DNA of 64,000 bases, taken from positions 22,175-86,174 of the forward strand of contig JAQGDQ010000873.1 of assembly GCA_030141605.1 (NCBI GenBank), given 5' to 3'. Source of the stretch: Tubiluchus corallicola (taxonomy: Eukaryota > Priapulida > Priapulimorpha > Priapulimorphida > Tubiluchidae). The notes beneath the pieces were generated by a model. The model saw only the letters and a program-made list of their open reading frames with translations. It did not search any database and was not told where the DNA came from. Positions 1,360 through 33,159 of the stretch are shown one piece after another; position 1 is the first letter of the stretch, and the number at the start of each line of letters is the position of its first letter. Made by a program: the position numbers and the translations under genes.

Positions 1360-4300
1360 CTAAAATATTAAAAGTTTGCTGTACGCATTTTCATAAAGAT
1401 CTGAATTGGCATTACTTGCTGAACTTTTGTCTGATATAGGCGCTGATACTACCTGTATAGGTTTGTTGCCAGAAGGTGTCACTACACTCTTGCTTGAACT
1501 AGTTTTTGCGTCTGCATTTGATGATGGGGGTTCTTGTGATTTTAAATTTCTATTGAAGAAGTCGTCATCTACATGTGGTTTCGATTGTGTTGTGGTTGCT
1601 AGCTTGCTGCCAAAGTTTCTGATTTCTTTACTCGGTTCAATTATTGTTAGTTTGGTGTTTCTTTGAGCTGGCGCTGCTTGCATACGTCTGTCTTTAATTG
1701 ACGAATATCCATCTCTTATGTAGTAACCTGGTGGATATGTTGTTACGCTTATCTGCCTGCTTCCTTTTGATCCAAAGTTGTTCCTTTGGTTAGAATATAA
1801 AGAGCCACGGTTTAGTAGTTTATTTACTGTGCCTCTTATTTGAAATGGCATATCATCTGCATGCTGGAACCTGTTCGTTTTGCTCCTGCTTCCTTTACCT
1901 AAGTTCAGTGTCCAAGATCCATCATCCATATTAGGAGATTCCCTTATGTACTTGTTTGGTTGCGTATCACTGGCGTAGCTGTTTGATTTTCTTTCATTTC
2001 TGTTGAATTGTCTTCTGCGTGGCATTGCTTCAGCAGACATTGATTCTCTTGGCAGATACCCTTGTGCTTGCTCCCTTCCATTCTTTGCTCTGTTATGTTG
2101 ATAATTAGAGGTACTAGTTCCTCTTTCACCATATCCCACAAATTCCTGTGTTTTGGAACGTATATCTGAGTTTGCAGATAGTGAAGGGAAAAATCTGCTC
2201 AGAGAACTTGGAGTAGTTGGTTGATCATAATCTTCCATATAGCTTGGTCTTTTTGCAGGTTGCATATTACCATACTGACTTCCGTACATTACTGGCCTGT
2301 CGGTGCTATTGTAGATTTTGAATCCTTGTACATAATATGGAGATGTCGTATTGACGTATGCCTGGTAGAATAAAGGTTCAGTTGTGAGAAAAGGTGGTGC
2401 TGGAGTAAAGTGACGTGAAACGGGGCGAGGATATATGCCTTGGGGATTGTCATGTACACTGTAATAGTGGGTATTTTGTGGAGCTGCTCCTAGAACTTGT
2501 GCTTGCAGTGGTTCTATTTGGCCTCCAACATATTGTTGTGAAGGGATAGTGTATCCAGGATACATCACTTGGTTGGGTAAAGCATAACCTTGTTGTCCTG
2601 AACTCTGAGCAGCTTGCAGTAGTTTTCGGATTTGTGCTTCCCGAAGTTGTTTTTGATTAACGGCGGTGCCTCCTTTCTTATTTCGTCTCTTGTTGCTTTG
2701 TCGCCTGTTTTGTCGTTTCCGTTGCTTTTGCCTTCCTTGTTGTCTGCCACGTCTTTTTCCATTTTGTTTAGCTTTGCGTTTTCGAGCAAGCCTTGAATTT
2801 CTTCTTCTCGCCCGTTGTTTTCTGTTAGTATTTTCTTGTTGCCTGCTGGAAGTTCTGCCATTATTGCTTCTTCGTTTAACAAAGTCACTTGGTTCCCAAG
2901 TTGCTGTGGTTTCAGTAAACTCACCTGTGGATTCAGTAATGTCTTCTTGTCCATTGTCAGAACTTCTTGCTAGTAAACTCCGTGCATTTGGCTTTTTAAG
3001 CCTTTCTAGATTTCGCCTGCGCTTGTTAGTATTGGCCTTTTTATTTCTCATCATGCGGTTGTTTTTATTGCGCGATGATGTTGAACTTGACTGAGTGTCA
3101 CTATTCCATGTGTCGGTAGTGCCTGTAAAAGCACCTGTAGTTTCTGTTGTAACAAGATCGTCTAGTCTGCGGTTACTCTGCCTGTTTCTTGGCTTACCAT
3201 TTCTTTGTTTTTGACGTCTTTTCGCCTTTCGCATCGCTTTCATCTGTCTTCTTCGTTCATTTATCTGCCTTTGTTTTTTCTCTTGCTCGATTTGCTTTTG
3301 TAGATATTTTACTTGCTTTAATATTTGTCTTTTCTTTGCTAATAACAAGATCTTCTTTTTTTCTCTTATATCTCTTTCTTCTTCTGTCACATCTTGCATT
3401 TCTGTATTCGTTGCATCTGTGTTCAAAGTTTTTGCATCTGCCATTGCAGACGCATGAGATTCTTCATCATCCTCAGCAATTTCTTCTGTTCGCTTATCTT
3501 CTTCTGCCTTTATTTTCTGTTTTTCTGTTGGACCATTAATCATTTGCACTCGACTTTTGTAGTTGCTTAAATGTTCATGATATTCTGTTGCAATAGGACT
3601 AGAGCCACGAATTTGAACGGGTCTTCCATTTATGAATACCCCTTGCGGAATCTTGTCGTCTAATTCCCTTAGAGCGGCCAGCAATTCATCATTGTCATTT
3701 TCTAGAAAAAATTATTTAGATGTAGATGTATTGTAGTCCTAGCAGTTAAAGTTTCTCTACCTAAAATGATATTATTTAGTTCTATTATTATATTGTTGGA
3801 CTTGTCTTAAATTTTTTAACTAAAGCTAAAAATGTGTTGCTTAGTGGTGTAGTTTGAGGTAAAGCATTACTGAGGTCAAAATTTGTTCAATTTCTTTTAC
3901 ATGGTTAAGTAGCAATGTTGCTTTCAAATTTTTGAATTTAATTTCATGATACGTGTCACTTTCTGCTTTACAGCCGGCTTTATTTTGATTCCAGTTAAAG
4001 CACGTCCTTGTACCCTTGGATTATGATGGTTTTTGTAGTTTTTATCAACATTTTGTGATCCTAAAAATTAGAAAAATAATACTGGAGAATTGTAAATACT
4101 CCTGGCTCCTGAACTGTTAAAGTAAGTAAGGTCACTTCAAGCATACCTTCTGTTTTAATAACAACTTTGGTTTCATCGTCTTTGCTGTCAGTGTCATCAT
4201 AATCAGCTGATTCACTTGCTTCTGTGGATGGTGCTATTGATGTTGTTGTGTACTCCGGCGCTTCTTCTGTCTGACTTGATGCATCTGTGACAGCTTCCAG

Positions 4301-5787
4301 TTTGTGTGTAGCAACATCTTGCCGTTCTGGCTCTACGAGCGTTATGCCTCTTCGTCCCAGCGTTACTGTAGGTTCAGGCTCCGTGATTGTCACCGATTTT
4401 TGTGCAAGTGTCACAGTGGGGCCTTCTAACACAGACGCCAGTGTAGCTCCTCGTCTTCTAGTTGTGGATGCGACTCCTTGCCGTCTAAGTGGAGTTGTCA
4501 TGACTCTTTGTCGTCTAGATGTTATTTTTGCATAATTGTCCACAGGGACGTATCCAGAATCGGTGGTTTGCAGAGAATTTCGATTGCCGGATCTCATTCC
4601 TCTCGTGCTCCACTAATTTGTCAGCATCAATGGAAAAGCAATTAAATATACTGTGATAGTAACAAACAGTTGAAATTTCATCTTAATATTTAAATCATAA
4701 GTGCAGGGAAAAGCTGGGAAGAAGAAGAAGAAGATTTAAATCATAAGTGCATTGACACACTTTCAACTCTCGTCTGAATACTTAAAATATTTGAATCTTT
4801 TTTCCTTGCAAATATAGGATGCTAATCTATGTCAAGTTGAATGGCTCTTGCTAAATTCTTTGCTAGTATTTATCATCGATTTTTGTTATTGTTCATTCTC
4901 TCTGAGGTTTTTATTGATTATTAAGTTCACTTGCTTCAAGTCTTTTGTCCTGAATAAGATACTAAAATAAGTCTAGCCTTCACCAGAATTTTGTATCCTC
5001 ATTTAGGTAGCAATTTGAACTTGACAGTGATTGTACTGCATCTTTTAGTTGTGCAATAGCAGTTGCTGTACTTACGCTCTTTTCATATTGCTGATCCGTT
5101 TCAGTAGTTTGCTTGTCATAACTGTGATACGATTTCAGGTTTTCTCCTTGACTAACAATGGAAAAGGTCTGTAAATCCAAGAGTACTGATATAGTAAATA
5201 ATCATAATAATCTTTATTTAAATTCAGCTTTTGGGTGAACAATTAACATTAGCTCAAAGAGCTATTATCGCCTACTGTAAATGACAACCTACAGATACAT
5301 AACAGAAGCTATTATTACCCCATTTTTACCCTAAATACCATGCGCCAGGCAGGGCAACAGCAGGTACCATTTTTGAAGTCGTTGGTATGACCCGACCACT
5401 GTATTGAACTCCCAGACCGAAAGCGGACGCGTTATCGCAAGGCTAAACCGTCTAATTATAAGGTGGAAACAGTCCAAACTAAATTTCACAGTTAATAACT
5501 TCGACATAATATTATTATCTATTATGCTACTCATAGAAGCTGTGCTTCGTATACTGACATTAACTGAAAAAGCTTTTGTACAACAGTATATCAATTATGC
5601 ACATTTGAAACCCTGTCCACAGATTTTTCATACTGCCCCAGGCATGAACATATTGTGAGTTTCTAATTATAGCACTGAAATACCTATTAATGTTTTCAGT
5701 ATTGAGAAAAACAAAAAATCTTCTAATGGACGATCACCTTACCAAAATTATAAGGCAGCAGCGCAGTAATCCTTGTTCCATATGCAT
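1360..5787 (-). CDS. Gene A: secreted, Lys/Arg/Gln-rich low-complexity protein, four coding exons, about 981 aa
   Basis: Assembled by eye from splice signals. Exon 1 is 5787-5743 (15 codons, donor GTAAGG, phase 0). Exon 2 is 5168-5076 (31 codons, donor GTAAGT, phase 0). Exon 3 is 4612-4147 (donor GTATGC, phase 1). Exon 4 is 3701-1360, starting after a CTAG acceptor and ending in TAG. Exons 1+2 give a signal peptide (hydrophobic LLRCCLIILTFSIVS, likely cut before QGEN). Exon 3 has repeated TVTL..R..T..EPE units and a Ser/Thr/Asp-rich end. Exon 4 starts acidic, has a basic predicted coiled coil at about residues 309-372, then two Thr-rich blocks (TTETTGAFTGTTDTW near 386 and STGEFTETTATW near 459) between Lys/Arg-rich tracts, and a Pro/Gln/Tyr-rich tail of about 400 residues. 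The basic coiled-coil stretch resembles that of gene B. No known domain was recognised. It could be a matrix, cuticle or secretion component, but that is a guess. An acceptor 4 nt before the ATG implies a 5' UTR intron. Confidence 0.75.
4613..4681 (-). other. Signal-peptide-like open frame ending in TAG at the exon 3 acceptor of gene A
   Basis: An ATG at 4681 opens 22 codons (MKFQLFVTITVYLIAFPLML, then TN) with the shape of a signal peptide. The frame is the same as exon 3 of gene A, but it stops at TAG 4615-4613, the acceptor of that exon. It may be a relic or alternative first exon, or chance. A weak in-frame GTATAT donor occurs after ten codons. Confidence 0.3.
5215..5480 (-). repeat. Degenerate tRNA-derived SINE
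   Basis: The reverse strand of about 5395-5460 carries a tRNA-like stretch. An A-box-like TTAGCCTTGCGATAACGCG is followed about 20 nt later by a B-box-like GAGTTCAATAC, and then by a non-tRNA tail running down to an A/T-rich end near 5215. Pol III A and B boxes at this spacing are typical of SINEs. It overlaps intron 1 of gene A. Confidence 0.4.
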
Positions 5788-5790
5788 GTT

Positions 5791-8040: not shown

Positions 8041-8065
8041 ATATATTATAGTATATATATATATA

Positions 8066-8171
8066 TTTTTTTTCTTTTGTAAGATCAGTGCATCATGCTC
8101 TAATAACGTAGCCTGAAATTGCGTCAGCATGAAGTTCCTTTGCAGTTGGGCTTATGGTACGGGTCATCCTA
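8066..8171 (+). repeat. Dispersed repeat copy 2, between TA microsatellites
   Basis: Second copy of the repeat at 5977-6079. It has TA dinucleotide runs on both sides, as if it had inserted into, or expanded from, an AT microsatellite. Confidence 0.6.
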
Positions 8172-8398
8172 TATATATATATATATAAACTACAGAAATG
8201 GCCCTCTCTGCTTATCTCTGACAACTTTCCCAATTTTGAATATCAAACGCTGCAGAAATTCGAATGTATCTGAATCGTGTTTTATTGTATAACATCAAGC
8301 AATGAATGCAGCAACTGCTGAACTTACCTTTTGTTGCCTTAATTTTATTTGTTTGTACATTCTTTGATTACATAAGTTCTGTAATATTAATAACAATA

Positions 8399-10508: not shown

Positions 10509-11933
10509 TTACCCACATAACTCCAATGTTGAAAAATTTGCACATTTGCTTGCTTTTCTTCTTGGAATTTTTACTCTATGGTACAGTTTCTCGCCCAGAA
10601 AAACAGCTATTCCAATACCGTGTCCAAGCAGAATCATGAAGACGTATTTAATGTGTTCCATACTTATGTGTTCTGCACCAACGGTTGTCATAGGCTTATT
10701 TAAACAGATATTTGCTTCCTCTAGCTCAGCTTCCAAAAGAAATTTTCCTATTCCACCTTGCATTATGCTGGCAATTCCATAATTTAACACGTCAGTGATG
10801 TTGCTGTTTCTAGGTACTGCAAATGAAAGTGTCTCAGGAGTCGACCTGAATGGTGCGAAAGTATATCTGCACTTTTTGTGCAACACGACATCTCGCTTCA
10901 TGAACAGTTTACCATAAATGTCTGAGAGGAAGTATGCGTACTTTCCTGTTGTCGTTAGTTCCAATGCCCTTTGGTAACTGTTGACAACTGAATTTGTGTC
11001 GCTTTGCATCTTTAACCAGAGCTTGTTGTACAGAGTGCCTGGATGACTGCGTCGCAATAGTCCTTCAAGATTAGTGCCTTTAATAACAACTGGCATTACG
11101 TCACTGTCTAGTAACTCTTGTGGTGTGTTAAAAGGGTATTTGGGGTGATTTATGGAGAGCTGGCAGATCAATATTCCCGTATATGTTGTGGTCACTATGA
11201 TAGCAAATGGCCACCACAATCCAATGACCATTCTAACAGACATTCGTTTCGATAAGTTTGTTCCTGCTTGCTTGAGAAATGCTGAGAACATAAACAGTGT
11301 GAAGTATGCTATGTCAGCAGCATGCTTGCTTGATGCACTACGAAATTTCGCTTGACTGTGAAGGATGGATACAGCTATTGAAACTAAAGCACAGCTAACC
11401 ATCAAACCAACCCAGACCAGTCCTTTAAATGGTGCCCATAAGTTGAACTCAGAGACTTCTTCTTCTGGTCGCTTTATCAGAAACACTTGAGATGTGTAGG
11501 CAAGTGGATGCAAGTGTTTGACCAGTCCTAAACGATGCCTGTTTGTAGTTAACAGTGCAACGATGATATCAAGTTCATTTTCAGTAGCTACTTTTTTCCA
11601 TTCGTATGTTGAATAATGCGTTTCTGTGTATGTGAAGTTCAAGTGATTGCTTAACATCTGCAGTATATCTTTCATCACTTTTTCAAAATTGCTGTGGAGA
11701 AGTGCTACTTTGAGATGTGCACCATCTAGTGAATGTTTTTCATGCACAAATTGTTTGCTGGTGTAACTTGCATGTCTGTATTGTGGCATCCCTAGTCGCA
11801 TCCAGGTTGCATTATTTTTGTTGCTAGTTAGTTCTTTTTTCTCCATATAATTTTGGTTGAAATTGTTTGCCACTTTAAACATGTAGATCATTGAAACACA
11901 ATTGATAAGCATTGCAAGAGAACTCCACCTCAT
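10509..11933 (-). CDS. IR1: divergent variant ionotropic glutamate receptor (IR), 474 aa, single exon
   Basis: A complete intronless frame. An N-terminal hydrophobic segment (residues 5-20) is a probable signal peptide. The S1 half of the ligand-binding domain is at about 72-165. Arg134 sits nine residues before Pro143, as the ligand-contacting arginine of iGluRs sits before the Pro of SKP. TM1 is at about 172-192, the pore loop/TM2 at 208-226 and TM3 at 233-260, with WWPF and YTGIL matching the W-W...Y-x-G-x-L pattern of IRs. The S2 half starts near 268 with LLRRS...W like the FFRRS...W of iGluRs, and TM4 is at about 427-449. The large amino-terminal domain of synaptic iGluRs is missing, as in divergent IRs, and the acidic S2 ligand contact is not conserved, so it is unlikely to be a glutamate receptor. 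Probable role: ligand-gated cation channel in chemosensory cells. It is a diverged paralogue of the three IR2 genes that follow. Confidence 0.9.
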   Translation of the reverse strand: MRWSSLAMLINCVSMIYMFKVANNFNQNYMEKKELTSNKNNATWMRLGMPQYRHASYTSKQFVHEKHSLDGAHLKVALLHSNFEKVMKDILQMLSNHLNFTYTETHYSTYEWKKVATENELDIIVALLTTNRHRLGLVKHLHPLAYTSQVFLIKRPEEEVSEFNLWAPFKGLVWVGLMVSCALVSIAVSILHSQAKFRSASSKHAADIAYFTLFMFSAFLKQAGTNLSKRMSVRMVIGLWWPFAIIVTTTYTGILICQLSINHPKYPFNTPQELLDSDVMPVVIKGTNLEGLLRRSHPGTLYNKLWLKMQSDTNSVVNSYQRALELTTTGKYAYFLSDIYGKLFMKRDVVLHKKCRYTFAPFRSTPETLSFAVPRNSNITDVLNYGIASIMQGGIGKFLLEAELEEANICLNKPMTTVGAEHISMEHIKYVFMILLGHGIGIAVFLGEKLYHRVKIPRRKASKCANFSTLELCG

Positions 11934-12459
11934 TTTCGCTTTACTGTGCAGTCTTCATCTTTGTTGGTGCTTGCTAACGATTTCTGTTTTTATAACTGAC
12001 TGTGGCAATGATGACATCGATACCATGACATTGATACACGTTGACCAAACACACCTGCTTCTGTGATATTTATGCCTAAATGGAAGTGATATGTAGCAAA
12101 TTCAAATACATCAGTAAAAGATTGGTGATGGAAAATTTATTTCCGTGTTGAGACTTCAGTAACATTTTGATCATGAAACTCATAAACCATTAGTGATGTA
12201 AAAGTAAACCGAGGTTGTCTTTTTCAGCACCGTGATTCAAATTTTAATACATTTAAAAAAATAAAGTTGAGTAGATCAGATGTTCTTTTGCTTCTCTTGA
12301 CTACCGTTTTGTCATTTGAGTAAAATGTCGCTGTTAAATTATCAGACTAATGTATTGTTAACAGATACAAAAACAATGCGCTTGCAGTCAAACAACGAGG
12401 TTGCAGTCATGTTCCTTCTTTTTCACATTTTCCTCATTTTCACATTTCTGTTTGAGTTT

Positions 12460-13857
12460 TTATGGACCACAGCTTTGTGTTATCTTTTTGTAGAGGCATT
12501 CACTGAGAATCGCAAAACATGCAATAATCACGCCTGTGAATAGTAGCGAAAAAGTGAGTGACAATTCAAGGATGCGTATTGTCCGTGCAGCAACATTTTG
12601 AGCAGGAGCTTGTAGACATTCTTCACAATGTGCTAGTGACGATGCTATAATTTTATTCATCAGTCCACTCTGTAGCATGCTCTTTAATGCTCGGTTGAAT
12701 GTTTCTACATGCACACTGTCTTTCGGAACTACGATGGACATCGGTGACAGATAATTTTCAGATTTATATGGAGCAAATGAAAACCGGCAACTTTTGTGCA
12801 ATTTCACATCCTGAGAAATAATTGCCTTTCCATAGAATTCTGATATGAACAAAGTGTACCTCTGTGATGCTGTAAGTTCTAGTCCAGTAAAATGATTGTC
12901 AGCTGGTGTTTCATCATCATCTTGCATTTTCTTCCACAGCAAGCCAAACTGTGTATCTGGAGGGCTGTTTCGTAATAGAGCGGTATCCGAAAAATTGCCT
13001 ATTGTCGTTAGTCTCATATCGCCGTCAATCAGTTCTTCAATGTTGTTAAAGGGATACGCTAGGTTGCTTACAAATAACTGACTAGTCAGGATGCCAGCAT
13101 ATATTGCTGTCACAATGAGAACGAAAAGCCACCACAGTATAATTAGAATCCTAGCAGGCCAACTTGCCGGCACATATGTACCACCTACATGAACTATAGA
13201 TCCCAGAGAATACTGGATAAAATAAGCCAGGTCTTTAGGTTGATGTTTAGATCGAATTTTTGGTCCATGCCGATCAAGGTAATAAATTATACATGCAGTC
13301 ATTATACTGAAGGCAATCAAAAGCATCCATACTGTTAGCGTAAATGGAGATGTTAGGTCTAGTGCTTCGTAATACTTCTGATGAACAATGAATATTTGAG
13401 GTGAATATGCAATTGGATACAGGAAAGTCATAAAGTTAAGACGGTGCTGGTTAACGTTAAATAAACCTAGCAGGAGGTCTACATCTTTGTATGTTACCAC
13501 TTCTTCCGGAGTTTTGCTTGTTGAAATCCATTGTATCGTATAAGTGAAATTTAATGCTTGTTGTAGGTAATCCAGTAATTGAATTAGCATCTCTTCAAAT
13601 ACGTCATTGATCCACATAGCTATGCGAAGTTCTTTTCCTCTTAACGTGTGGCTTGTTGTTTCGTTTGTGTTTTTACTGCATCCAGCGAAAGATTTTGCAC
13701 TGCCTTCCATGGCTCCTATAGCTGGTTTAGAGACTCCAATTACAGTTCTCTTTTCTATGTCTGCTTTCTTACTGTTACTAGGTAATGAGTGCTGACTACT
13801 TAATATGATGATGCATACGCTGAAGATCTTAATTTGGTAACACCGTCTCACATCCAT
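12460..13857 (-). CDS. IR2a: variant ionotropic glutamate receptor (IR), 465 aa, single exon
   Basis: Intronless and complete. Signal peptide at about residues 8-22, S1 lobe at about 76-165 with Arg139 nine residues before Pro148 (the iGluR binding-arginine position), TM1 174-193, pore loop/TM2 211-228, TM3 236-262 (ILWWLF...IYAGILTSQL), S2 lobe from about 268 (YPFNNIEEL, then LLRNSPPD...LLW) and TM4 428-452. As is usual for divergent IRs, there is no amino-terminal domain and the canonical acidic glutamate contact is missing. Probable ligand-gated cation channel of chemosensory neurons; the ligand cannot be inferred. It differs from IR2b only at residue 379 (Lys versus Asn), so the two are a very recent duplication or have been homogenised by gene conversion. 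Confidence 0.92.
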   Translation of the reverse strand: MDVRRCYQIKIFSVCIIILSSQHSLPSNSKKADIEKRTVIGVSKPAIGAMEGSAKSFAGCSKNTNETTSHTLRGKELRIAMWINDVFEEMLIQLLDYLQQALNFTYTIQWISTSKTPEEVVTYKDVDLLLGLFNVNQHRLNFMTFLYPIAYSPQIFIVHQKYYEALDLTSPFTLTVWMLLIAFSIMTACIIYYLDRHGPKIRSKHQPKDLAYFIQYSLGSIVHVGGTYVPASWPARILIILWWLFVLIVTAIYAGILTSQLFVSNLAYPFNNIEELIDGDMRLTTIGNFSDTALLRNSPPDTQFGLLWKKMQDDDETPADNHFTGLELTASQRYTLFISEFYGKAIISQDVKLHKSCRFSFAPYKSENYLSPMSIVVPKDSVHVETFNRALKSMLQSGLMNKIIASSLAHCEECLQAPAQNVAARTIRILELSLTFSLLFTGVIIACFAILSECLYKKITQSCGP

Positions 13858-14689
13858 TGTGGCACAAATGTAGTAGTCATCAGTGCCTTACATTACCATT
13901 GTGCTAATGTATCGATAATATACTTAAACTTAATGGTTTGCTAATATTTATCCATTTGTTTAGGGCCTTGGAAATTTTCTGATTCATGCATTAAAGCTTC
14001 ACTTGCTCACTTTGCAATAAGCCATTTCTATTGTATTACCTTATGGAAAGCAAACAGCAATATATATCATGTTAGATTCTCTGTTGTTTTTGTTGGTTTA
14101 GTTATTTGCATGTATAGCCCAATAGCAAACACCATTTATTGTCGTAGAGTTCTCAATGTTATCATGACTGTCACTTTCCTTTGTTGTGGTTTCAGAGCCA
14201 TTAGAACTGAGTTTGCTGACTTTATCTGCAATGAATGAAAGTGCCAACTTTCATTTAGTTTTTTTCTACTTTTGGGCTGCAGCCCTAACTGGCCTTTGGA
14301 CAGTTTTTTTTAATGTTAGAATAACTTCCTTTTGTTGTTGGTCACCCACTCAAGTGCTTGTATCAGAAGTATTGAAGTATTTGATTGGTCCATGAATTTG
14401 CTTGAATGTCAGCCCTTTAACAATCCACAGCTTGTTGAAGTTGGCGCAGAGCTTCATATCGTGTTTGATGCACGCTATGTGCGAGAAAAAGTTCTTTCGC
14501 GTACCCATGTTTTTTTTGCTAGTTTATTCATTGATCATAATCTTCCTTCATATTTGTACAGCAGCATAAAGTGTAAAGCAGTTATGCAAAATTCGTGGCC
14601 TTTATGTTGCCTGATTGCATTAGGTTGCAAAAATGCTTCTCCGAAGGTGCCTCATGGAATGATGTTCTTCAACATACAAAAAGATACAG

Positions 14690-14910
14690 AAAGTCAGCAG
14701 ACAGAATTTTGTGCTATCACTTTGTGTTTCCATTTCTGTTTCGTGTACATGTGTACACTCATAATTTTTCATTAGGCCTAATAATGCACACTGTGGTTAA
14801 ATGATTTTTGTACCTTACTTTGTGTACTATTTCCATTTCATGCACATGTGCACACTCGGAATTTTGCATTAGGCCTAATAATGCACATTGTGGTTGAATG
14901 CTTTTTGTAC
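14690..14910. repeat. 97-bp tandem repeat, two copies, in the spacer of unit A
   Basis: CATTAGGCCTAATAATGCACA recurs at 14770 and 14867, a 97-bp period. The same repeat has three copies in unit B. Confidence 0.7.
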
Positions 14911-15147
14911 CTAAGTGCGCACTGCTGCTTTTCGTTAAACAAAGTAAAATTCTGTTTGTTTTTGGTTCATCAAATAAGTAATCTGTAAAATAACATATTT
15001 GCTGCTTCACATAACAGATAATAATTGCTAGTGGCTTTGTTTAACTTTTCAGTACTTTACCCAAATGTGCAGCACAAAAATGGCTATTTTAGTTATTTTT
15101 CGTTGTCATTATGTCGATTGTGCACCCGTTATTTTTGTTGTCTTTTG

Positions 15148-15324
15148 TCGCTGGTGTAACTTGCATGTCTGTGCAGTTGACATTCCTTGGTTACCAGGTT
15201 ACATTGTTTTTGTTGCTAATCAAATTTTTTCTCCACATAAGTTTTGGTTGAAATTGCTTATTATTTTAAACATGTAGATCATTGGAACAGATTTGATAAA
15301 CATTACAAGACAACTGCACCTCAT
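15148..15324 (-). pseudogene. 5' remnant of an IR1-like gene (unit B)
   Basis: The ATG at 15324 opens a frame colinear with the IR1 start (MR at the N-terminus, MIYMFK kept, then NFNQN), but it stops after 34 codons and homology to IR1 ends near 15148. Only the first 60 or so codons of the ancestral gene remain. The identical location in unit C shows the remnant was part of the duplicated block. Confidence 0.8.
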
Positions 15325-15856
15325 TTTCACTGTACTGTGCAGCATTTTATTTTATTTTTTGTATGTTGCTAGCACATTCTGTTTTTATATCTTACTATGG
15401 CAGTGACATTGATACCATGAAATTGATGCAGGATGACCAAACACACTTGCTGCTGAGAAATTTGTGCCTAACAAAAATAAATGGAAGAAGTGATATGTAG
15501 CAAATTCATATGCATCAGTAACAGACTGGTGATCGAAAATTTATTTCCATATTGAGACTTCAGTAACATTTTGATCACGAAACTCATAAACCATTAGTAA
15601 TGGAAAAGTAAACCGGTTTAGTCATTTTCGGCACCGTGATTCAAATTTTAATATATTTAAAAAAAACAAAGCTGAGTAGATCAGATGCTTCTTTTGCTTC
15701 TCTTGACTACCGTTTTGTCATTTGAGTAAAATGTCGCTGTTAAATTATCAGACTAATGTATTGCTAACAGATACAAAAACAATGAGCTTGCAGTAAAACA
15801 ATGAGGTTGCAGTCATGTTCCTTCTTTTTCACATTTTCATATTTCTGTTTGAGTTT

Positions 15857-17254
15857 TTATGGACCACAGCTTTGTGTTATCTTTTTGTAGAGGCATTCAC
15901 TGAGAATCGCAAAACATGCAATAATCACGCCTGTGAATAGTAGCGAAAAAGTGAGTGACAATTCAAGGATGCGTATTGTCCGTGCAGCAACATTTTGAGC
16001 AGGAGCTTGTAGACATTCTTCACAATGTGCTAGTGACGATGCTATAATTTTATTCATCAGTCCACTCTGTAGCATGCTCTTCAATGCTCGGTTGAATGTT
16101 TCTACATGCACACTGTCATTCGGAACTACGATGGACATCGGTGACAGATAATTTTCAGATTTATATGGAGCAAATGAAAACCGGCAACTTTTGTGCAATT
16201 TCACATCCTGAGAAATAATTGCCTTTCCATAGAATTCTGATATGAACAAAGTGTACCTCTGTGATGCTGTAAGTTCTAGTCCAGTAAAATGATTGTCAGC
16301 TGGTGTTTCATCATCATCTTGCATTTTCTTCCACAGCAAGCCAAACTGTGTATCTGGAGGGCTGTTTCGTAATAGAGCGGTATCCGAAAAATTGCCTATT
16401 GTCGTTAGTCTCATATCGCCGTCAATCAGTTCTTCAATGTTGTTAAAGGGATACGCTAGGTTGCTTACAAATAACTGACTAGTCAGGATGCCAGCATATA
16501 TTGCTGTCACAATGAGAACGAAAAGCCACCACAGTATAATTAGAATCCTAGCAGGCCAACTTGCCGGCACATATGTACCACCTACATGAACTATAGATCC
16601 CAGAGAATACTGGATAAAATAAGCCAGGTCTTTAGGTTGATGTTTAGATCGAATTTTTGGTCCATGCCGATCAAGGTAATAAATTATACATGCAGTCATT
16701 ATACTGAAGGCAATCAAAAGCATCCATACTGTTAGCGTAAATGGAGATGTTAGGTCTAGTGCTTCGTAATACTTCTGATGAACAATGAATATTTGAGGTG
16801 AATATGCAATTGGATACAGGAAAGTCATAAAGTTAAGACGGTGCTGGTTAACGTTAAATAAACCTAGCAGGAGGTCTACATCTTTGTATGTTACCACTTC
16901 TTCCGGAGTTTTGCTTGTTGAAATCCATTGTATCGTATAAGTGAAATTTAATGCTTGTTGTAGGTAATCCAGTAATTGAATTAGCATCTCTTCAAATACG
17001 TCATTGATCCACATAGCTATGCGAAGTTCTTTTCCTCTTAACGTGTGGCTTGTTGTTTCGTTTGTGTTTTTACTGCATCCAGCGAAAGATTTTGCACTGC
17101 CTTCCATGGCTCCTATAGCTGGTTTAGAGACTCCAATTACAGTTCTCTTTTCTATGTCTGCTTTCTTACTGTTACTAGGTAATGAGTGCTGACTACTTAA
17201 TATGATGATGCATACGCTGAAGATCTTAATTTGGTAACACCGTCTCACATCCAT
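15857..17254 (-). CDS. IR2b: variant ionotropic glutamate receptor (IR), 465 aa, single exon
   Basis: Second IR2 copy with the same signal peptide, S1, three-helix pore region, S2 and TM4 as IR2a and the same Arg139. The only protein difference is Asn379 for Lys379 in the S2 lobe (VVPNDS), and by eye I see about two base differences over the 1.4 kb. The shared upstream spacer suggests it is under the same transcriptional control as IR2a. Its downstream flank (plus-strand bases just below 15857) has a small deletion relative to IR2a that does not touch the coding frame. Confidence 0.92.
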   Translation of the reverse strand: MDVRRCYQIKIFSVCIIILSSQHSLPSNSKKADIEKRTVIGVSKPAIGAMEGSAKSFAGCSKNTNETTSHTLRGKELRIAMWINDVFEEMLIQLLDYLQQALNFTYTIQWISTSKTPEEVVTYKDVDLLLGLFNVNQHRLNFMTFLYPIAYSPQIFIVHQKYYEALDLTSPFTLTVWMLLIAFSIMTACIIYYLDRHGPKIRSKHQPKDLAYFIQYSLGSIVHVGGTYVPASWPARILIILWWLFVLIVTAIYAGILTSQLFVSNLAYPFNNIEELIDGDMRLTTIGNFSDTALLRNSPPDTQFGLLWKKMQDDDETPADNHFTGLELTASQRYTLFISEFYGKAIISQDVKLHKSCRFSFAPYKSENYLSPMSIVVPNDSVHVETFNRALKSMLQSGLMNKIIASSLAHCEECLQAPAQNVAARTIRILELSLTFSLLFTGVIIACFAILSECLYKKITQSCGP

Positions 17255-18084: not shown

Positions 18085-18400
18085 GCAGACAGAATTTTGT
18101 GCTATCACTTTGTGTTTCCATTTCTGTTTCGTGTACATGTGTACACTCATAATTTTTCATTAGGCCTAATAATGCACACTGTGGTTGAATGATTTTTGTA
18201 CCTTACGTTGTGTACCATTTCCGTTTCGCGTACATGTGTACAGACAGAATTTTTCATTAGGCCTAATAATGCACACTGTGGTTAAATGATTTTTGTACCT
18301 TACTTTGTGTACTATTTCCATTTCATGCACATGTGCACACTCAGAATTTTGCATTAGGCCTAATAATGCACATTGTGGTTGAATGCTTTTTGTACCTAAG
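18085..18400. repeat. 97-bp tandem repeat, three copies, in the spacer of unit B
   Basis: CATTAGGCCTAATAATGCACA recurs at 18158, 18255 and 18352. Unit A has one copy fewer, and a single partial copy lies near 22608. Confidence 0.7.
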
Positions 18401-18617
18401 TGCGCACTGCTGCTTTTCGTTAAACAAAGTAAAATTCTGTTTGTTTTTGGTTCATCAAATAAGTAATCTGTAAAATAACACATTTGCTGCTTCACATAAC
18501 AGATAATAATTGCTAGTGACTTTGTTTAACTCAAATGTGCAGCACAAAAATGGCTATTTGAGTTATTTTTCGTTGTCATTATGTCGATTGTGCACCCGTT
18601 ATTTTTGTTGTCTTTTG

Positions 18618-18794
18618 TCGCTGGTGTAACTTGCATGTCTGTGCAGTTGACATTCCTTGGTTACCAGGTTACATTGTTTTTGTTGCTAATCAAATTTTTT
18701 CTCCACATAAGTTTTGGTTGAAATTGCTTATTATTTTAAACATGTAGATCATTGGAACAGATTTGATAAACGTTACAAGACAATTGCACCTCAT
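18618..18794 (-). pseudogene. 5' remnant of an IR1-like gene (unit C)
   Basis: Near-identical to the remnant at 15148-15324, with the ATG at 18794 and the same early stop. It was therefore already truncated before units B and C separated, or has been homogenised with it. Confidence 0.8.
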
Positions 18795-19334
18795 TTTCAC
18801 TGTACTGTGCAGCATTTTATTTTATTTTTTGTATGTTGCTAGCACATTCTGTTTTTATATCTTACTATGGCAGTGACATTGATACCATGAAATTGATGCA
18901 GGATGACCAAACACACTTGCTGCTGAGAAATTTGTGCCTAACAAAAATAAATGGAAGTGATATGTAGCAAATTCATATGCATCAGTAACAGACTGGTGAT
19001 CGAAAATTTATTTCCATATTGAGACTTCAGTAACATTTTGATCACGAAACTCATAAACCATTAGTAACGTAAAAGTAAGTTAGTTTAGTCATTTTTGGCA
19101 CCGTGATTCAAATTTTAATATATTTAAATAAAAAATAAAGTTGAGTAGATCAGATGCTTCTTTTGCTTCTCTTGACTACCGTTTTGTCATTTGAGTAAAG
19201 CGTCGCTGTTAAATTATCAGACTAATGTATTGCTAACAGATACAAAAACAATGCGCTTGCAGTCAAACAACGAGGTTGCAGTCATGTTCCTTCTTTTTCA
19301 CATTTTCCTCATTTTCACATTTCTGTTTGAGTTT

Positions 19335-20735
19335 TTATGGACCACAGCTTTGTGTTATCTTTTTGTAGAGGCATTCACTGAGAATCGCAAAACATGCAAT
19401 AATCACGCCTGTGAATAGTATCAAAAAAGTGAGTGACAATTCAAGGATGCGTATTGTCCGTGCAGCAACATTTTGAGCAGGAGCTTGTAGACATTCTTCA
19501 CAATGTGCTAGTGACGATGCTATAATTTTATTCATCAGTCCACTCTGTAGCATGCTCTTCAATGCTCGGTTGAATGTGTCTACATGCACACTGTCATTCG
19601 GAACTACGATGGACATTGGTGACACATAATTTTCAGATTTATATGGAGCAAATGAAAACCGGCAACTTTTGTGCAATTTCACATCCTCAGAAATCATTGC
19701 CTTTCCATAGAATTCTGATGTGAACAATGTGTACCTCTTTGATGCTGTAAGTTCTAGTCCAGTAAAATGATTGTCAGTTGGTGTTTCATCATCATCTTGC
19801 ATTTTCTTCCACAGCAAGCCAAACTGTGTATCTGGAGGGCTGCTTCGTAATAGAGCGGTATACGAAAAATTGCCTATTGTCGTTGGTATTATATCTCCGT
19901 CAATCAGTTCTTCAATGTTGTTGAAAGGATACGCTAGGTTGCTTACAAATAATTGACTAGTCAGGATGCCAGCATATATTGCTGTCACAATGAGAACGAA
20001 AAACCACCACAGTATAATTAGAATCCTAGCAGGCCAACTTGCCGGCACGTATGTACCACCCATACGAACCAAAGATCCCACAGAATACTGGATAAAATAA
20101 GTCAGGTCTTTAGATTGATGTTTACACTTAATTTTTTGTCCATGCCGATCAAGGTAATAAATTATACATGCAGTCATTATGCTGAAGGCAATCAAAAGCA
20201 TCCATACTGTTAGCGTAAATGGAGATGTTAGGTCTAGTGTGTCGTATTGCTTCTGATGAACAATGATAAATGTTTGGGGTGAATACGTAATTGGATACAG
20301 GAAAGTCATAAAGTTAAGACGGTGCTTGTTATAGCTAAATAAACCTAGCAGGAGGTCTACATCTTTGTACGTTGCCACTTCTTCCGGAGTTTTGGTATCA
20401 GAAATCCATTGTATCGTATAAGTGAAATTTAATGCTTGTTGTAGGTAATCCAGTAATTGAATTAGCATCTCTTCAAATATGTCATTCATCCACATAGCTA
20501 TGCGAAGTTCTTTTCCTCTTAACGTGTGGCTTGTTGTTTCGTTTGTGTTTTTACTGCATCCAGCGAAAGATTTTGCACTTCCTTCCATGGCTCCTATAGC
20601 TGTTTTAGAGACTCCAATTACAGTTCTCTTTTCTGTGTCCATTTTTGTATTGTTACTAGTTAATGAGTGCTGAATACTTAATAAGATGATGCATACGCTA
20701 AAGATCTTAATTTGGTAACACCGTCTCACATCCAT
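19335..20735 (-). CDS. IR2c: variant ionotropic glutamate receptor (IR), 466 aa, single exon
   Basis: Third, more diverged IR2 copy, intact from signal peptide to TM4. It has one extra residue before TM1 (TFIIVHQ in place of IFIVHQ). Replacements are scattered in S1 (for example YNKHRL for VNQHRL), the TM1-TM2 loop (QKIKCKHQSK) and S2 (YTALLRSS), while TM3 (AIYAGILTSQL) is unchanged. Changes concentrated in the ligand-binding lobes rather than the pore would fit a shift in ligand preference, which is inference. It keeps the arginine at the iGluR ligand-contact position. Confidence 0.92.
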   Translation of the reverse strand: MDVRRCYQIKIFSVCIILLSIQHSLTSNNTKMDTEKRTVIGVSKTAIGAMEGSAKSFAGCSKNTNETTSHTLRGKELRIAMWMNDIFEEMLIQLLDYLQQALNFTYTIQWISDTKTPEEVATYKDVDLLLGLFSYNKHRLNFMTFLYPITYSPQTFIIVHQKQYDTLDLTSPFTLTVWMLLIAFSIMTACIIYYLDRHGQKIKCKHQSKDLTYFIQYSVGSLVRMGGTYVPASWPARILIILWWFFVLIVTAIYAGILTSQLFVSNLAYPFNNIEELIDGDIIPTTIGNFSYTALLRSSPPDTQFGLLWKKMQDDDETPTDNHFTGLELTASKRYTLFTSEFYGKAMISEDVKLHKSCRFSFAPYKSENYVSPMSIVVPNDSVHVDTFNRALKSMLQSGLMNKIIASSLAHCEECLQAPAQNVAARTIRILELSLTFLILFTGVIIACFAILSECLYKKITQSCGP

Positions 20736-21589
20736 CGCAGCACAAATGTAATAATCATAGGTAGGTGCCTTCCATAACCATTACGCTAATGTATCAATAC
20801 TATAGTTAAGTTAATGGTTTGTCAATATTTATCCGTTAGTGTAGGGCCTTGGAATTTTTCTGATTGGCACATCATTGTATTGATTTCTATTGTGTTAGCT
20901 TATGGAAAGCAAAGGTTATGTTAAACTCTCTGGTGTGTTTTTGTTAGTCCTGTTTGTATTAGTTTGTATAACCCAATAGCAAATACCATGATAGAGTTCT
21001 TGTGTTAACGTAATTGCCACTTTCCTTTGTTGTGGTTTCAGAGCCTCAGAATTGAGTTTTGCTGAAGCTGAAATGTGAAGTTTTAAAGTATTATTTTTTC
21101 ACATTTAGCTCTGTAGTAACGTTGGTGACAAATTTATCAATATTCTTACATCATAAGGTAGTATTACGCTTTATACACTATCATTACCGCAAACGAATAA
21201 TTATACTGCACTTATTTGCAATGAATGAAAGTGCTAAAAAATTTGTACTATTATTGTTTTGTTTATGCTATAGTTGATTGCTTAGGTATGTTTAAGCAAG
21301 ATTCTGAATTTTGCAAAGCTTTTGTCATAAATGTCTTGAGTGGCCAGTTTGATACAGGTTTTTCAAAGCAAAGTTGTGTTTTTCTAGATACAAGTTATCT
21401 TTCGGAATGGCTATTAACAAGGTGCAGGAAATTAATGTATTTGACAACGATGTCAAACAGTAGAAACTGTGTTACGGGAAGTCTGCTGCTATACTTTGGC
21501 ATAAATCTCTGGAGCGAAGGCCGTGGACCTTCCCGTTTCTGTCAGTACTAGAGTTTCAACCGAATATTCTGCTGGCACAGTCGTTCATT

Positions 21590-22863: not shown

Positions 22864-24736
22864 CTAATTTCTACGCCGAAACCGGAGTGTTCTTAGCTGA
22901 AATCTTCTGATTCTGTTTTGCCTTCGACGTCGCCTGCGTGCTTGAAGCTTACGCTTTTTGATTTGGGCTTTACGACCTGCTTCTTCCATTAACTGGTTTA
23001 TAATGTCCGCATCATCTGCATTTTCGACCAAACTTGCTGTTGTTGCCTCCGTAGTTACTTCAAGAAATAGTGCGCCCGGATCGCGTCTCCTAAGCGCCCG
23101 CTCATCCCGTCGCAGCTGCTCTTTCAAGAATTTGATTTGTTGTTCTAGTTCGATTCGCTTTCGCAGCAGCGCTACTCTTTGTTTTGCTGTCAATGTCTTT
23201 TTCTCTGCCCCATTTCTGTCATCGTTTTCTGTAGTGTTGGCCTCGTCTTCAGACCGTATGCCTACAATGGTTTCTGTCTGGATGTTATCAATTTGTGGAA
23301 GCTGATTCTCGCTAGTTTCCTCTTCATCTATTGCAGACACTCCGTAAGTTTTGGCATCCTCGTTTGCACTCGTTTGATTAACAATAGTGTTGTTGTATTT
23401 CCTTATTACAAGAGTTTCTTTTTCTGACAAATTATGTGCATCGTCAGAATGGTAGTTAAAGACAAACGTGTGGTGATGATAAATGTGCTTGTTTGCAGCG
23501 TTCTGCAGCAGACTTTGGTTGTAAGGTGCTTCCGCTAAAGACCTACTCGCTATTATTTCCGCCATAGGATGAAAATTACGATGTCTGTTTGGGGATCGCA
23601 GGAAGGTGACGCCTTTGGAGTCGCGTCTTGAAGGGTTTTCTTTTGCTCGTTCAATGACATGTCCATGTCCTTTGGAGTCGCGTCTTGAAGGGTTTTCTTT
23701 TCCTCGTTCGATGACATGTCCATGTCCTCTATCTAAAAACACCTGTTGCAAAATGATTAAAGGAATGGTATAAATTGTTTAATTTATGAAGTTAAATGAT
23801 GCTACAGAAAGTGAAAAAAGCTGCTATAGAATACGATATGATTATGTCTGCTCACAGAAAAACCACAGAAAAGATTTGGCCCAGTTCCTTCAGCCAGCTG
23901 TGAAGTGAAAAAATATACTGTAGAATACAGTGTTGTTACGGCTGCTCGCAGAAAAAATTACACAAACATACCAAAAAAGAAAAAAGTTCAATGGACTTTC
24001 CTTATTACAATTTCAAGGAAGTTTGAACATTTAAGTTGTAAAGAAAAGAGTAATTTTTAGTGTGGAAACTAAGATTTTTTACAAGGTATCCGGATTTATT
24101 TGTTTTGCAGTAGCAATTATGTCAAGTATTATCAAACAACATTGTTTTATCATTCTTGATCTACGGTGATTTATTTCAAATGCAATATATTTTTAAAAGC
24201 AAAATATCACTTTAAACTTGCCATGCAATTAAGCACTTACATGTTCGAAAATTCTATTATGTTTCATCTTTCTGTCATAATGGATCCAGCTAAACTAACA
24301 CTATCATTTAAACATTAGTGTTTAAATACCTAACTACAAAAAAAAGGAATTAAATGTGTAAACATTTTTTGCAGATTCTAGAAAATCTTAATTCTAGAAC
24401 TTCAATTGAAATTTAGAAGCAACGCAGCATTTTATAATCCTAGTAGCATACAAATATAAACCGAGCAAGGTTCTCCGGCTTTGTATAAACTGCTGCTAAA
24501 AATATTAGAAAAAGCTGTATGGCAAGAATTTGGCAGTTTACCTGTTTTTGTAATGAACATATATAGCTGGAAATTATTTTGCTGGTATATATGAAGTAAG
24601 CAAGCAAATGATAAGGACACATTTCGCAAATGGCGAAAAACCAACTGTCTGGTGTACCACTAATTTCTGTTAAGCTTTATCAACTTACCAACAATGTCAG
24701 AAGCATGAACGCATAAACCGCACAGACTTTCCCCAT
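22864..24736 (-). CDS. Gene B: secreted basic coiled-coil protein, two coding exons, about 308 aa
   Basis: Exon 1 is 24736-24689 (16 codons, MGKVCAVYAFMLLTLL, donor GTAAGT, phase 0). Exon 2 is 23742-22864, starting after a GCAACAG acceptor. An acceptor (AAATTTCAG) 28 nt before the ATG implies a 5' UTR intron. The mature chain begins with two 19-residue tandem copies of a KGHGHVIER-KENPSRRDS unit (57 bp each, 23612-23725). A mixed, partly acidic middle follows, then a long basic heptad-like stretch (KQRVALLRKRIELEQQIKFL) resembling the coiled coil of gene A, then FLEVTTEATT (compare the Thr-rich blocks of gene A), and a C-terminal tail of Arg clusters. No known domain was recognised. The basic stretch and shared exon plan make it a paralogue of gene A. 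A secreted structural or nucleic-acid/polyanion-binding role is conceivable but unproven. Confidence 0.8.
23612..23725 (-). repeat. 57-bp in-frame tandem duplication in gene B
   Basis: Two 57-bp copies (19 codons) with only about three base differences, at the start of the mature chain. Confidence 0.85.
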
Positions 24737-27116: not shown

Positions 27117-29552
27117 CTACCTGTTCCCGTTGTTGTTCTTTGCCAGTTGTTCCATTGTTCTGTCTGCGTTATCGAAGGCTGCTTTGTTATCAGCATTGTC
27201 TTCTGCATTGTTAAAAACTGCTCCTTCGTTATCAGCTTTGCCTTTTACTCCGTTTGTGCTGACATTATCTTGTGCATTGTTGAGAACAGTTTTTTCCGTG
27301 TCGTCGTTGTCCTTTGTGCCTAGAGCCACCAAATGAGCTTCAGCTACGTTCTCCTCCAATGATGGTTTCAACTCAGCACCCAGTTGTGCATAGCCTTCAG
27401 GTTCATTGAGTACTTCTACTGCATTCGCGTCTGCTGTTCCTAGAGCAGCTAGCTCGGCTGTATCTCCTCCATTCAGGTCTTGAGCACTAAGAACTGTCAA
27501 CTGAAAAAGTTAGGAAATTAAGTTTTCATTAGAAACGTTGAGTGGCTATCGTGTTGTTGTGGCTTTTTTTCTTATTTTGGTCGTGTGGCTGTGGCGGGGT
27601 GAATAACTTCATGTGAATGACGTGGGTTCGATACTCATTCTGGGTGTTCATTAACCTTGTCTGTTCACCTTGTAGGGGAAGTAGTTTAAACTCAGACACC
27701 TCTACCGGTTAAGTAACTCATCTTATTCCGGTTCTGATCACGCCACGAACATCTTGTTGAGGAAGGCGTGGTTCTAAGTGCTTTCCACCATGCCGCGTGT
27801 TATAAAAAAATTATCAAATGTTTCAGTGTGCAATATAGCCACCTTTCACACGTGACCAGGGCCCAATTTCACAAAGCTGTCACAAAGTTAATGACGTCGT
27901 AATTAATAGTTCAGTGAATGTAGTATGGACGTTACAAACTTAGTGGAAGCTTAGTATAAGGGTCCTAGGTCTAAATTATATTTCCATTGAATGAATGAGC
28001 TCCTTATTTAAATTACATTGTTCTTTTATCAAAGATTAATTGCCATTTGCTCTGTATGCCTTTGTGTGTCAATACAGGAAGAGCAAAACAAGATTTGTGT
28101 TTTTAGTACAGGGCTTGCTACTGGTTCTAAAGCTATATATGCGTACACATGCAAGATTTTTTGTAAATAATTTGTTTAATTGTTGACAAGTTTTTTTTAA
28201 AATGAATACGTTTTAAGAGAGTTGCTGTTGAGGTTAGATCTTAAACCGTAGTGGTTTTTAGCGAAAAGCCCCGTCAAGCCGTCTCTCTGTTCAAATATCG
28301 GGCAACTTGCGTGAAGTAAAGTTAAATGTTAAGCCTAATAAGTATTTAAAAAGCTTTGCATTTAGTAGTTTCAGCAGGATGTTTGGCATTCAAGGCAAAG
28401 TGACATTTATAGAAGAAATAGAATTAGTTAATTTATTAGATTAAATCAGCTTGACCTGCTTTTCCATGGAATTCGTTATGTTCCCCTGATGAGAAACTAG
28501 GGTTAGCAATTGTTTCGGTTTTGAATAATTTCTTTTTATTTTTCCTTTGCAGACCTTTGTTTATTTCTAGAAAATTTTTGTAAAAGAAACCCGACAACCT
28601 TAAATGATATTTTTACTTAACCTGAGATAAACTTCACAATTTTTTTTAAATTTTCTCTGTAACAGTAAACATGTCTATGTATCCGTGTTACTAGAACGAG
28701 TTCATATATTTTGATAATGTGAAGGAGTTGACAGACCCGAGATGGTCTATATTTTTTAGTGCAAACTGGTTTTAAGTGACCCATTATACCATGTCCATTA
28801 TACCCAGTAAGTTATTAGTAAGGTCTTGAGTTCAAGACCCTGTAGAGAAGCAAAATGTTTTTCAGACTTTAATTTAGAATGCTGCTTAATAGCCTAGATT
28901 TGTTGAGAAAAGTACCCCAGTCTAAAAAAGATTCAGTAAACCTTCTCAGGAACAGACTAAACGAGTAGCCTCAGTATAAACATGCTGAATAGTCATGTTC
29001 AGTATCAATGAGCTGAGTAAATAAATGGTTTCTAAGCAAACACTTTAAACAATCCAACTAAGTAACAACCCGGTTAGTAAACTATATCAGTGTGAACAAA
29101 CTAAAGAAGTACAGTACAAAGTGGCTGAAAAAGTTCCTTGGTGTTCATATACAGTATGGAACTGTTTCAATGTAAGTCTGGATCATTTTTCGTAAACTAA
29201 TTAGCCTCTTTAGTCCGACGTGTAAAAAGCCTGCAAATAAGGCTTAATCAAACCATTTCAGTGTGAATAAGAAATAACGTAAATAAACAAGCTGGTGTGT
29301 ATATCCTCTTTTAACATATTAAGGCCAAGTAAACTATTTCAATATAAATAGGGTAGCTGAGTAAACAATATCTCATTCTAAATAAGCCTGCTGCATCATT
29401 ATAAAATTTAAACTATAAGTTTTTAATATTAATGATAAAATAATGATAATTAAATATATTGAATTAGTTTTGGTTAAATAGCACGTGCTTAAAATATACA
29501 CAAAACTTACCAAAACTGCGCACGCAACAAGGAAAGTTTCAAACTGGTGCAT
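27117..29552 (-). CDS. Gene C: secreted acidic Asn/Ala-rich protein, two coding exons, 141 aa
   Basis: Exon 1 is 29552-29511 (14 codons, MHQFETFLVACAVL, donor GTAAGT, phase 0). Exon 2 is 27500-27117, starting directly after a TTTTTCAG acceptor and ending in TAG. An acceptor (AGATTTCAG) 16 nt before the ATG implies a 5' UTR intron. The joined N-terminus is a good signal peptide with a predicted cut after LTVLSA. The mature chain is acidic and rich in Ala, Asn and Asp, with loose internal repeats (AALGTADAN...VALGTKDND; VLNNAQDN, VFNNAEDNADN, AFDNADRTM). There are no cysteines after the signal peptide and no known domain. The intron is about 2 kb and contains a SINE. It shares the exon plan of genes A, B and D but has the opposite charge. 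Confidence 0.8.
27578..27815 (+). repeat. tRNA-derived SINE
   Basis: A tRNA-like head with the B box GGGTTCGATACTC near 27624-27636 is followed by a body of about 160 bp (TTCATTAACCTTGTCTGTTC, then AGGAAGGCGTGGTTCTAAG) and a short A-rich end. It lies inside the intron of gene C. Confidence 0.5.
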
Positions 29553-29568
29553 TTTCGTATTCGCTTCT

Positions 29569-31561: not shown

Positions 31562-33159
31562 TTATTCATCCCCGGCACCTGCCCGCTGTCGTCGTCGTCG
31601 ACCTCCTCGCCCTCGTCCTCTTCTGCCACGGCCGAGTGTTCCATCCTGCGCTTCGGCTTCTTCTTCGAGCCTACGAAGCTTTCGTCTTATGTTGCCACGT
31701 CTCCTCCTGGCCCGACTCTTTCTTCTCTTATTTCTGCGTCTGGAGCGCCTCTTGCCCTTGTTTCTGGCCCGTCTGATTTTGGCTCTGGTCCTCGCGCTGA
31801 TATCCAAAGCGAGGTTGCCTGCTTCCACCGCGGTGTCCTTGTCGTAGACAGCCAAATCACTGCCTGCTTCTTCGTCATATTCCAGTGATGCTATGCGATT
31901 GTCGGATTCAGCTTCTGATATGGTTCCTTGTACTGCCAGACCAAGCTGGAAATTTGATACAAAATGTCATCAGTTTTATATTTTTATTCCTGGAATTTCT
32001 TTAGCTCATCTGGAAGCTACATAGTCAACACAGTAAATTTGCTGTAGTGTTGTCCCTTTGTCACCACAGGGAATTCCCCACAAGAGCATTTAAGTTTTCC
32101 TATGTGCAACTAAGGTTATTATATTATATAAGGTCCTAGTATATATAATCCTATATAAATCCCGTACTGGTTAAATAGAGTCAGTACTTTTGAAAAAGGA
32201 ATTATTATTCGTGTAAGTTAATACGGGTCAGTCAGAAGAGAAGTGAATTAGGAAATTTAAGTTACACATTAAATCAATTTAAAAGCTTTTTCAGGGGTGT
32301 TCGGGATAGGGGTCGTCATGACCCCGACCCCCGTAACCTGACCCCATAGTTTTCCCAAATCCCCGACCCCATTCATTCCCGCCTCTAACCATCACGGTGA
32401 TGACGTATTTTACGTTTTACATCATTGACGATCAGTTTTTCTAAACGTCTTATGATCTTATAAGAAGTTTAAAATAAACGTCTAATTATCTTTTCGTGGC
32501 GCACAACAAGCAGAGTGCATACAGCCTTCTGTTTGTGTAACCAATTTATAGATCAGACAAAGAGAATTAACATATCTTCAGATGAAATGTAAACAAAGAA
32601 TTTTGATATAATTTCATATCTTCAGGGATCATAATATATATATGATCGAAAAAATTAATCATTTATAAAGTTTCTACCAATACACGATTACAGATTATTC
32701 GCAGACTTGTTACCTATAGTATTGTATTTTTATGACAGTAATACATGGGCATAGATATAGAATTGCAGTGCTTAACTATATATCACATTGCATTTATGTT
32801 ATCTTTGTTGTTCTCGATGTTTGGTAACGTCTCTCTGAACTATAATTTTTTTCTGGTTACCCACTATTATAGTGTATTTGTCTCGAATTAAGTTGAATTA
32901 TAGTCAGTAAACTAATTAACTAACTAACTATGGTTCAAGGTCGGATACCCCGATCCTGACTTGTACCTCGACCAGCCCTACCTGTAACTGCTGAAAGGAG
33001 CGCTAGAAGCCGAGGAATAGAAAAAAGAAATATTGAAATCGCCAAGGACTTGAAATGTTTTGTTACGAATGTTACGAATACAAAGAACGAAATGTAAAAC
33101 GTGGGACGTACCAGAACAATTTGAACAAATGCTGTCCATATTAATCTGTGGAGCTGCAT
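31562..33159 (-). CDS. Gene D: secreted Arg-rich protein, two coding exons, 143 aa
   Basis: Exon 1 is 33159-33112 (16 codons, MQLHRLIWTAFVQIVL, donor GTACGT, phase 0). Exon 2 is 31945-31562, starting after a TTTCCAG acceptor and ending in TAA. An acceptor (CTCTGCCAG) one base before the ATG implies a 5' UTR intron. The signal peptide runs through the junction (IVL|LGLAVQG), with a likely cut near AVQG. The mature chain has an acidic first third (SEAESDNRIASLEYDEEAG), then a dense Arg/Lys block of about 40 residues, a short acidic LEEEAEAQDG, and a Gly-Arg-rich end (GRGRRGRGRGG). The acidic-then-basic layout could be a propeptide masking a basic mature part, but no dibasic site stands out from the Arg background. 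The family is unknown. Arg-rich tails raise the possibility of RNA, DNA or polyanion binding. Confidence 0.82.

Follow-up and report, generated by a model that had tools for sequence, protein, structure and literature searches.

Spliced genes for putative charge-segregated secreted proteins in the priapulid Tubiluchus corallicola: a shared exon layout with limited kinship

Four predicted genes for secreted proteins, here called A, B, C and D, lie in a 64,000-nucleotide stretch of the genome of Tubiluchus corallicola (assembly GCA_030141605.1, contig JAQGDQ010000873.1, positions 22,175 to 86,174 of the forward strand), referred to below as the window, whose coordinates are used throughout. The question raised by this locus is whether the four genes constitute one family, as proposed by an initial annotation made from the DNA alone, or whether they have in common only the way in which their coding sequence is divided into exons. 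The exons had been placed accurately; the family claim exceeds what the sequence allows.

When read on the minus strand, all six introns of A to D showed exact GT-AG boundaries and kept the reading frame, at every coordinate given in that annotation (donor side/acceptor side: A 5743/5168, 5076/4612 and 4147/3701; B 24689/23742; C 29511/27500; D 33112/31945). The joined exons encode proteins of 979 (A), 308 (B), 141 (C) and 143 (D) amino acids. In each of them a phase-0 intron interrupts the signal peptide, after 13, 16, 14 and 16 codons, respectively, and the next exon completes it. The first coding exons all end in a leucine codon, (T/C)TG followed by GT. The length of 14 to 16 codons ascribed to them is correct for B, C and D; in gene A, the exon counts 15 codons from the upstream ATG at 5787 and 13 from the next one.

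The signal-peptide micro-exon of gene A (5743..5781, minus strand, as are all the exons below) is preceded by an acceptor 9 nt upstream and ends in TTG before the donor GTAAGG. Coding exon 2 (5076..5168), 31 codons flanked by phase-0 introns, completes the signal peptide, exon 3 (4147..4612) is threonine-rich and then acidic, and the last coding exon (1360..3701) carries an acidic stretch, a basic coil-like stretch (about residues 310-360 of the protein, judged by eye), Lys/Arg blocks and a disordered tail. The micro-exon of gene B (24689..24736, 16 codons) has an acceptor 28 nt upstream and TTG before the donor GTAAGT, and the main exon (22864..23742) encodes an acidic middle, a basic coil-like stretch (by eye) and an Arg-rich tail. 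For gene C, a weak acceptor lies 16 nt upstream of a 14-codon micro-exon (29511..29552; TTG, donor GTAAGT), followed by a main exon of 384 nt (27117..27500) that is acidic, Asn/Ala-rich and lacks a basic tail. Finally, the micro-exon of gene D (33112..33159, 16 codons) has an acceptor 14 nt upstream and ends in CTG before the donor GTACGT; its main exon, also of 384 nt (31562..31945), encodes an acidic head and an Arg-rich tail containing KLRRLEEE. If the upstream acceptor-like sites are used, the signal exons would measure 48-76 nt.

The specificity of these models was evaluated within 4 kb upstream of each main exon, where every stretch of 5-29 codons running from an ATG to a GT was rated by simple ad hoc scores for its donor strength and its likeness to a signal peptide. 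For B, C and D, the only stretch that passed was the annotated exon (1 of 51, 1 of 34 and 1 of 33, respectively). For A, 19 of 160 stretches passed; the top two were its own exon read from the two ATGs, and the next ten sat in a GTGTGG satellite (12 of the 19 being listed). A scan of both strands, with repeats and the initial 4 kb on each of them excluded, covered 181 acceptors that had 20 open codons (93 on the plus and 88 on the minus strand). Eight of these obtained a passing first exon, all on the minus strand and all with the first exons of A to D, through the four annotated acceptors and four nearby alternatives. No other first exon appeared outside the masked repeats, a result that measures specificity and not independent discovery, the cut-offs having been set after A to D had been seen. 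The acceptors before the ATG, from which a non-coding first exon had been proposed, ranked at 0.024 (A), 0.076 (B), 0.25 (C) and 0.028 (D) against 2148 background ATGs, and at 0.089 for E, a relative of D described below. Jointly they are unusual (Fisher 0.004 for A to D, 0.002 with E), while the acceptor of C taken alone is not significant.

By its length alone, the open frame of C could have arisen by chance. In codon score, C (0.457) ranked above D (0.373) and E (0.321) and above four chance frames, which scored −0.09 to 0.13. Shifted frames of C also reached 0.23, above the chance frames, and when only synonymous codons were considered C stood out with 0.108, compared to −0.002 for D and 0.014 for E. 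Because the shifted frames score high too and the synonymous codons add little, composition contributes and the codon score is weak support for C. Taken together, A to D look like real spliced genes.

The strongest support for the predicted gene models is a paralogue of the same layout that was found by way of its cargo. Searching the species' own genome of 343.5 Mb with D gave one convincing relative, gene E (G000:C1874:534529-535125), on a separate contig of 3.19 Mb, with an E-value of 3.8e-6. The match covers only residues 45-114 of D, that is, the mature part. E nevertheless repeats the layout of D, with an acceptor-like site 18 nt before the ATG, a 16-codon signal exon ending in TTG before GT, a phase-0 intron, an acceptor and a main exon, which aligns with that of D at 48% identity. 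With each of three block sizes, 1000 block shuffles failed to reach the similarity of the two mature chains; D and E appear to be homologues. A scan of about 9.5 kb to each side of E showed no further members, with criteria so strict that it missed E's own signal exon.

Genome searches with A, B and C showed no paralogues of these genes among the scored candidates. The weak matches of A (three loci) were mostly microsatellite and that of B resembled a nucleoporin; a weak match of D lay in a repeat beside a collagen-like stretch. Among the weak matches of E, one looked like a receptor with fibronectin-type stretches and two were microsatellite. All of these assignments were made by eye and none of the loci was retained as a relative. 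A further weak match of E, locus L026 (C2265:651782-652147), was also rejected, being a Thr-rich secreted-looking frame with an unsplit signal peptide; Thr-rich and then basic and coil-like, it shows a similar style of cargo in a different gene plan (by eye).

The charge of the proteins is in agreement with the description of A, B and D as basic and C as acidic, with net charges of +58, +15, +21 and −16, respectively. The charges of A, B, D and E are distributed in order along the chain. When each protein was split at the point of maximal contrast, the acidic and basic parts carried −19/+78 (A), −7/+21 (B), −10/+30 (D) and −20/+29 (E). Independently of the chosen split points, the charge segregation was reached by 0 of 60 shuffles for A, 1 of 200 for B and 0 of 200 for both D and E. 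The mature parts of A, B and D contain no cysteine and that of E contains one, and all four fall on the disordered side of the charge-hydropathy line. Common to A, B, D and E is thus, as far as the predicted proteins show, an acidic first part followed by a basic, cysteine-poor and disordered tail.

Do these features amount to kinship? The exon plan is common to all five genes, phase 0 after 13-16 codons. The initial annotation had described the micro-exon as shared; what is shared is its position and phase and not its sequence, since among the ten pairs of N-terminal 28 residues none clearly exceeded composition shuffles (lowest 36 of 500). Among the mature chains, the similarity between A and B was reached by 2-10 of 500 shuffles and that between C and E by 4-13 of 1000. 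After ten comparisons both are marginal, at best suggestive of common descent and not convincing. The pairs A-C, A-D, A-E, B-C, B-D, B-E and C-D were null against shuffles. Of the proposed four-gene family there remain spliced genes, a common layout and a paralogue of D, with mature chains clearly related only in the case of D and E. The location of all four genes on one strand within 32 kb, around an array of ionotropic-receptor-like (IR) genes, was likewise correct, but the clustering is weak evidence because the intervening receptor genes share that strand. Nor is the layout alone the mark of a family, because an intron within the signal peptide has also been described in arthropod cuticle genes; the architecture of A to D is a variant of a known theme and not a new kind. 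For the conotoxin genes surveyed, the first intron is described as phase 1 in all superfamilies but I2, where it is phase 0 (PMC3862624). Pfam scans of A to D gave no match above the family cut-offs, and sub-threshold matches to unrelated families (B 0.016, C 0.059, D 0.086) were set aside as composition effects. Among the titles and abstracts listed by the literature searches, none described the A-D set, from which we do not claim its absence from print.

In our preferred reading, A to E are lineage-restricted, secreted and disordered proteins with a structural role in some extracellular material, in which their charges would drive condensation; we put the chances of this at about even. Building on the observed junctions, reading frame, same-layout paralogue and charge pattern, we infer that the genes are expressed in a secreting tissue from transcripts that would begin with a non-coding exon, followed by the exon of 48-76 nt in which translation starts and which encodes the larger part of the signal peptide. 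After the phase-0 intron, the remaining coding sequence would finish the signal and encode the cargo. In A, B, D and E this cargo would be a polyampholyte with segregated charges, its acidic part preceding the basic one, and in C a purely acidic chain. Candidate materials would be mucus, cement, tube, cuticle or mineral matrix. After secretion, opposite charges might bring about condensation of these proteins with each other or with an acidic polysaccharide.

Several results weigh against this picture. D and E are the only clearly homologous pair among the five proteins. Even this kinship is invisible by BLASTP alone, where the values were weak (E-A 0.022, E-D 0.077), as is expected because the sequences are so compositionally biased, and the reverse genome search with E retrieved D at 0.005. 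Synonymous codon use lends no support to either D or E. In C, which is acidic throughout, the charges are not segregated (138 of 200 shuffles do as well), and charge decoration, as a second measure, was only modest for B (6 of 200 shuffles).

The condensing materials to which A to E can be likened are known from other animals. The cement of the sandcastle worm (Phragmatopoma) is reported to consist of secreted polybasic, polyacidic and zwitterionic proteins that condense (PMC11277488). The likeness lies in oppositely charged secreted proteins acting together, and in the priapulid, oppositely charged chains with signal peptides are present by prediction, as in cement-type sets. The cement relies on DOPA and phosphoserine, whereas A to E are known from the DNA only, and here, in a likeness drawn by description, acidic and basic stretches are combined within single chains in four of the five proteins. 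Among the proteins of molluscan mantle secretomes, disordered ones of low complexity are also reported to be common (PMC4897951). These resemble A to E in being lineage-restricted, secreted, disordered and rapidly evolving, but they are described as usually Gly/Ala-rich, in contrast to the Lys/Arg and Asp/Glu blocks found here.

A sizeable possibility is that A to E are unrelated secreted genes of ordinary structure, with A to D chance neighbours and only D and E related. This presumes that a 5' non-coding exon, together with an intron that interrupts the signal peptide or lies close to it, is common in animal secreted genes. The dissimilar signal peptides of A to E and the null result for most pairs of mature chains fit it well, as do reports from arthropods. 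In Drosophila, genes for proteins with signal peptides are described as showing a phase-0 intron peak at position 5, comprising 88 proteins of which 38 are annotated as cuticle proteins and 46 lack annotation (PMC1626468), and 86% of the intron-bearing CPR genes of Anopheles, which encode cuticle proteins with the R&R chitin-binding domain, are reported to be interrupted in the signal peptide (PMC2259329). The correspondence with such cuticle genes is nevertheless incomplete. Their first exons are given as 3-36 coding nt (median 12) compared to 39-48 in A to D, and their R&R domain, PF00379, was not found in A to D by the Pfam scan. The search of the genome for PF00379 gave 0 matches, where PF03142, PF00059 and PF00060 did match; as no control genome matched PF00379 either, its absence is not proved. 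Against mere ordinariness, A, B, D and E repeat the size of the exon (13-16 codons), its phase, its (T/C)TG end before GT and the upstream acceptor, along with the lack of cysteine and the order of charges. The general intron excess near signal-peptide cleavage sites is moreover reported to be phase 1 and not phase 0 (PMC1626468). Judged by eye, the hydrophobic starts of four receptor frames in the window, which are intronless throughout, and of L026 are unsplit.

The order of charges could also be that of a cationic antimicrobial peptide precursor, with the acidic head as a pro-piece that masks the Arg-rich tail until a furin-like release. Acidic heads and Arg-rich tails are present in D, with 6 RX(K/R)R motifs and 12 dibasic pairs, and in E, with 12 and 20, respectively. 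A precedent is provided by the myticalins of mussels, cationic precursors rich in Arg that are extended by an anionic part and whose genes are reported to have an intron directly before the start codon (PMC5577615). As described there, myticalins are much shorter, with the cationic part preceding the anionic one and with signal and mature peptide encoded in a single exon; in D and E, as in A and B, the acidic part comes first and the signal peptide is divided between two exons. Both A (979 aa) and B (308 aa) greatly exceed the myticalins in size and C has no cationic part, so that we consider this origin improbable. We also think unlikely, if less so, the most far-reaching form of the condensation reading, namely that A to E represent an animal family, so far undescribed, of secreted proteins built as diblock polyampholytes from an acidic head and an Arg-rich tail, with C as the acid-only partner, clustered as a module, equipped with an interchangeable signal micro-exon bounded by introns and forming a self-condensing extracellular material.

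Between A and B, and outside the A-D set, lie the four intronless IR-like genes (10509..20780, minus strand). Three of the four frames were scanned against Pfam and matched the channel domain, and all four are among the genome matches to this domain, PF00060. The genome search for it gave a scored match for each of the best 150 of 208 candidates, a count that takes in ordinary glutamate receptors and possible assembly duplicates. Most of these matches were single open frames of about 440-530 aa (by eye). The genome thus appears to hold a very large set of short intronless IR-like genes, many in tandem, with 27 among the matches listed on one contig (C1556). For comparison, a broad survey of 2010 reports 3 to 85 IRs per species, their presence across protostomes and their apparent absence from deuterostomes (PMC2924276). 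The receptors thus mark the genome, from its sequence alone, as that of a protostome, and the 0 matches to PF00379 as probably that of a non-arthropod. A unit of about 3.4 kb that carries receptor genes occurs three times in tandem at positions 11757-21065 of the window, with 95% and 88-92% similarity between copies; by eye, the first two copies encode nearly identical proteins.

Other repeats were observed in the window. The satellite-bearing element rich in GTGTGG occurs as one copy at 8383-10136 and as tandem copies of opposite orientation at 57987-64000, up to the contig end. Its copies are about 88-92% alike, a piece of 270 nt recurs at 37.4-37.7 kb, and the element gives long open frames of repeat sequence. 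A short-unit minisatellite at 52218-53222 has open frames rich in YGYPHIYHTD-type repeats. Elsewhere in the genome, the C-type lectin domain PF00059 matched 144 among the best 150 of 264 candidates; 13 of the listed matches, on different contigs, agree in their score, in frame length and in having three TAA stops, a pattern that would fit a mobile element or duplicates in the assembly. At least 13 exon matches to chitin synthase (PF03142) on four contigs look like about seven genes (by eye); for the brachiopod Lingula, 31 chitin synthases are reported (PMC4595640). No contig with COX1 was found. The mollusc haemocyanin domain PF14830 was not found in the genome, and as no control genome matched it either, its absence is not proved.

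Genes such as A to E are easily missed, with a tiny first coding exon, a low-complexity cargo and, in A to D, no recognised domain. If their charge pattern is functional, they would offer, ready-made by nature, protein blocks of opposite charge for condensation outside the cell, and the micro-exon could serve in the search for other genes of the kind. If it is not, the locus would be a clean case of ordinary secreted-gene structure mistaken for kinship.

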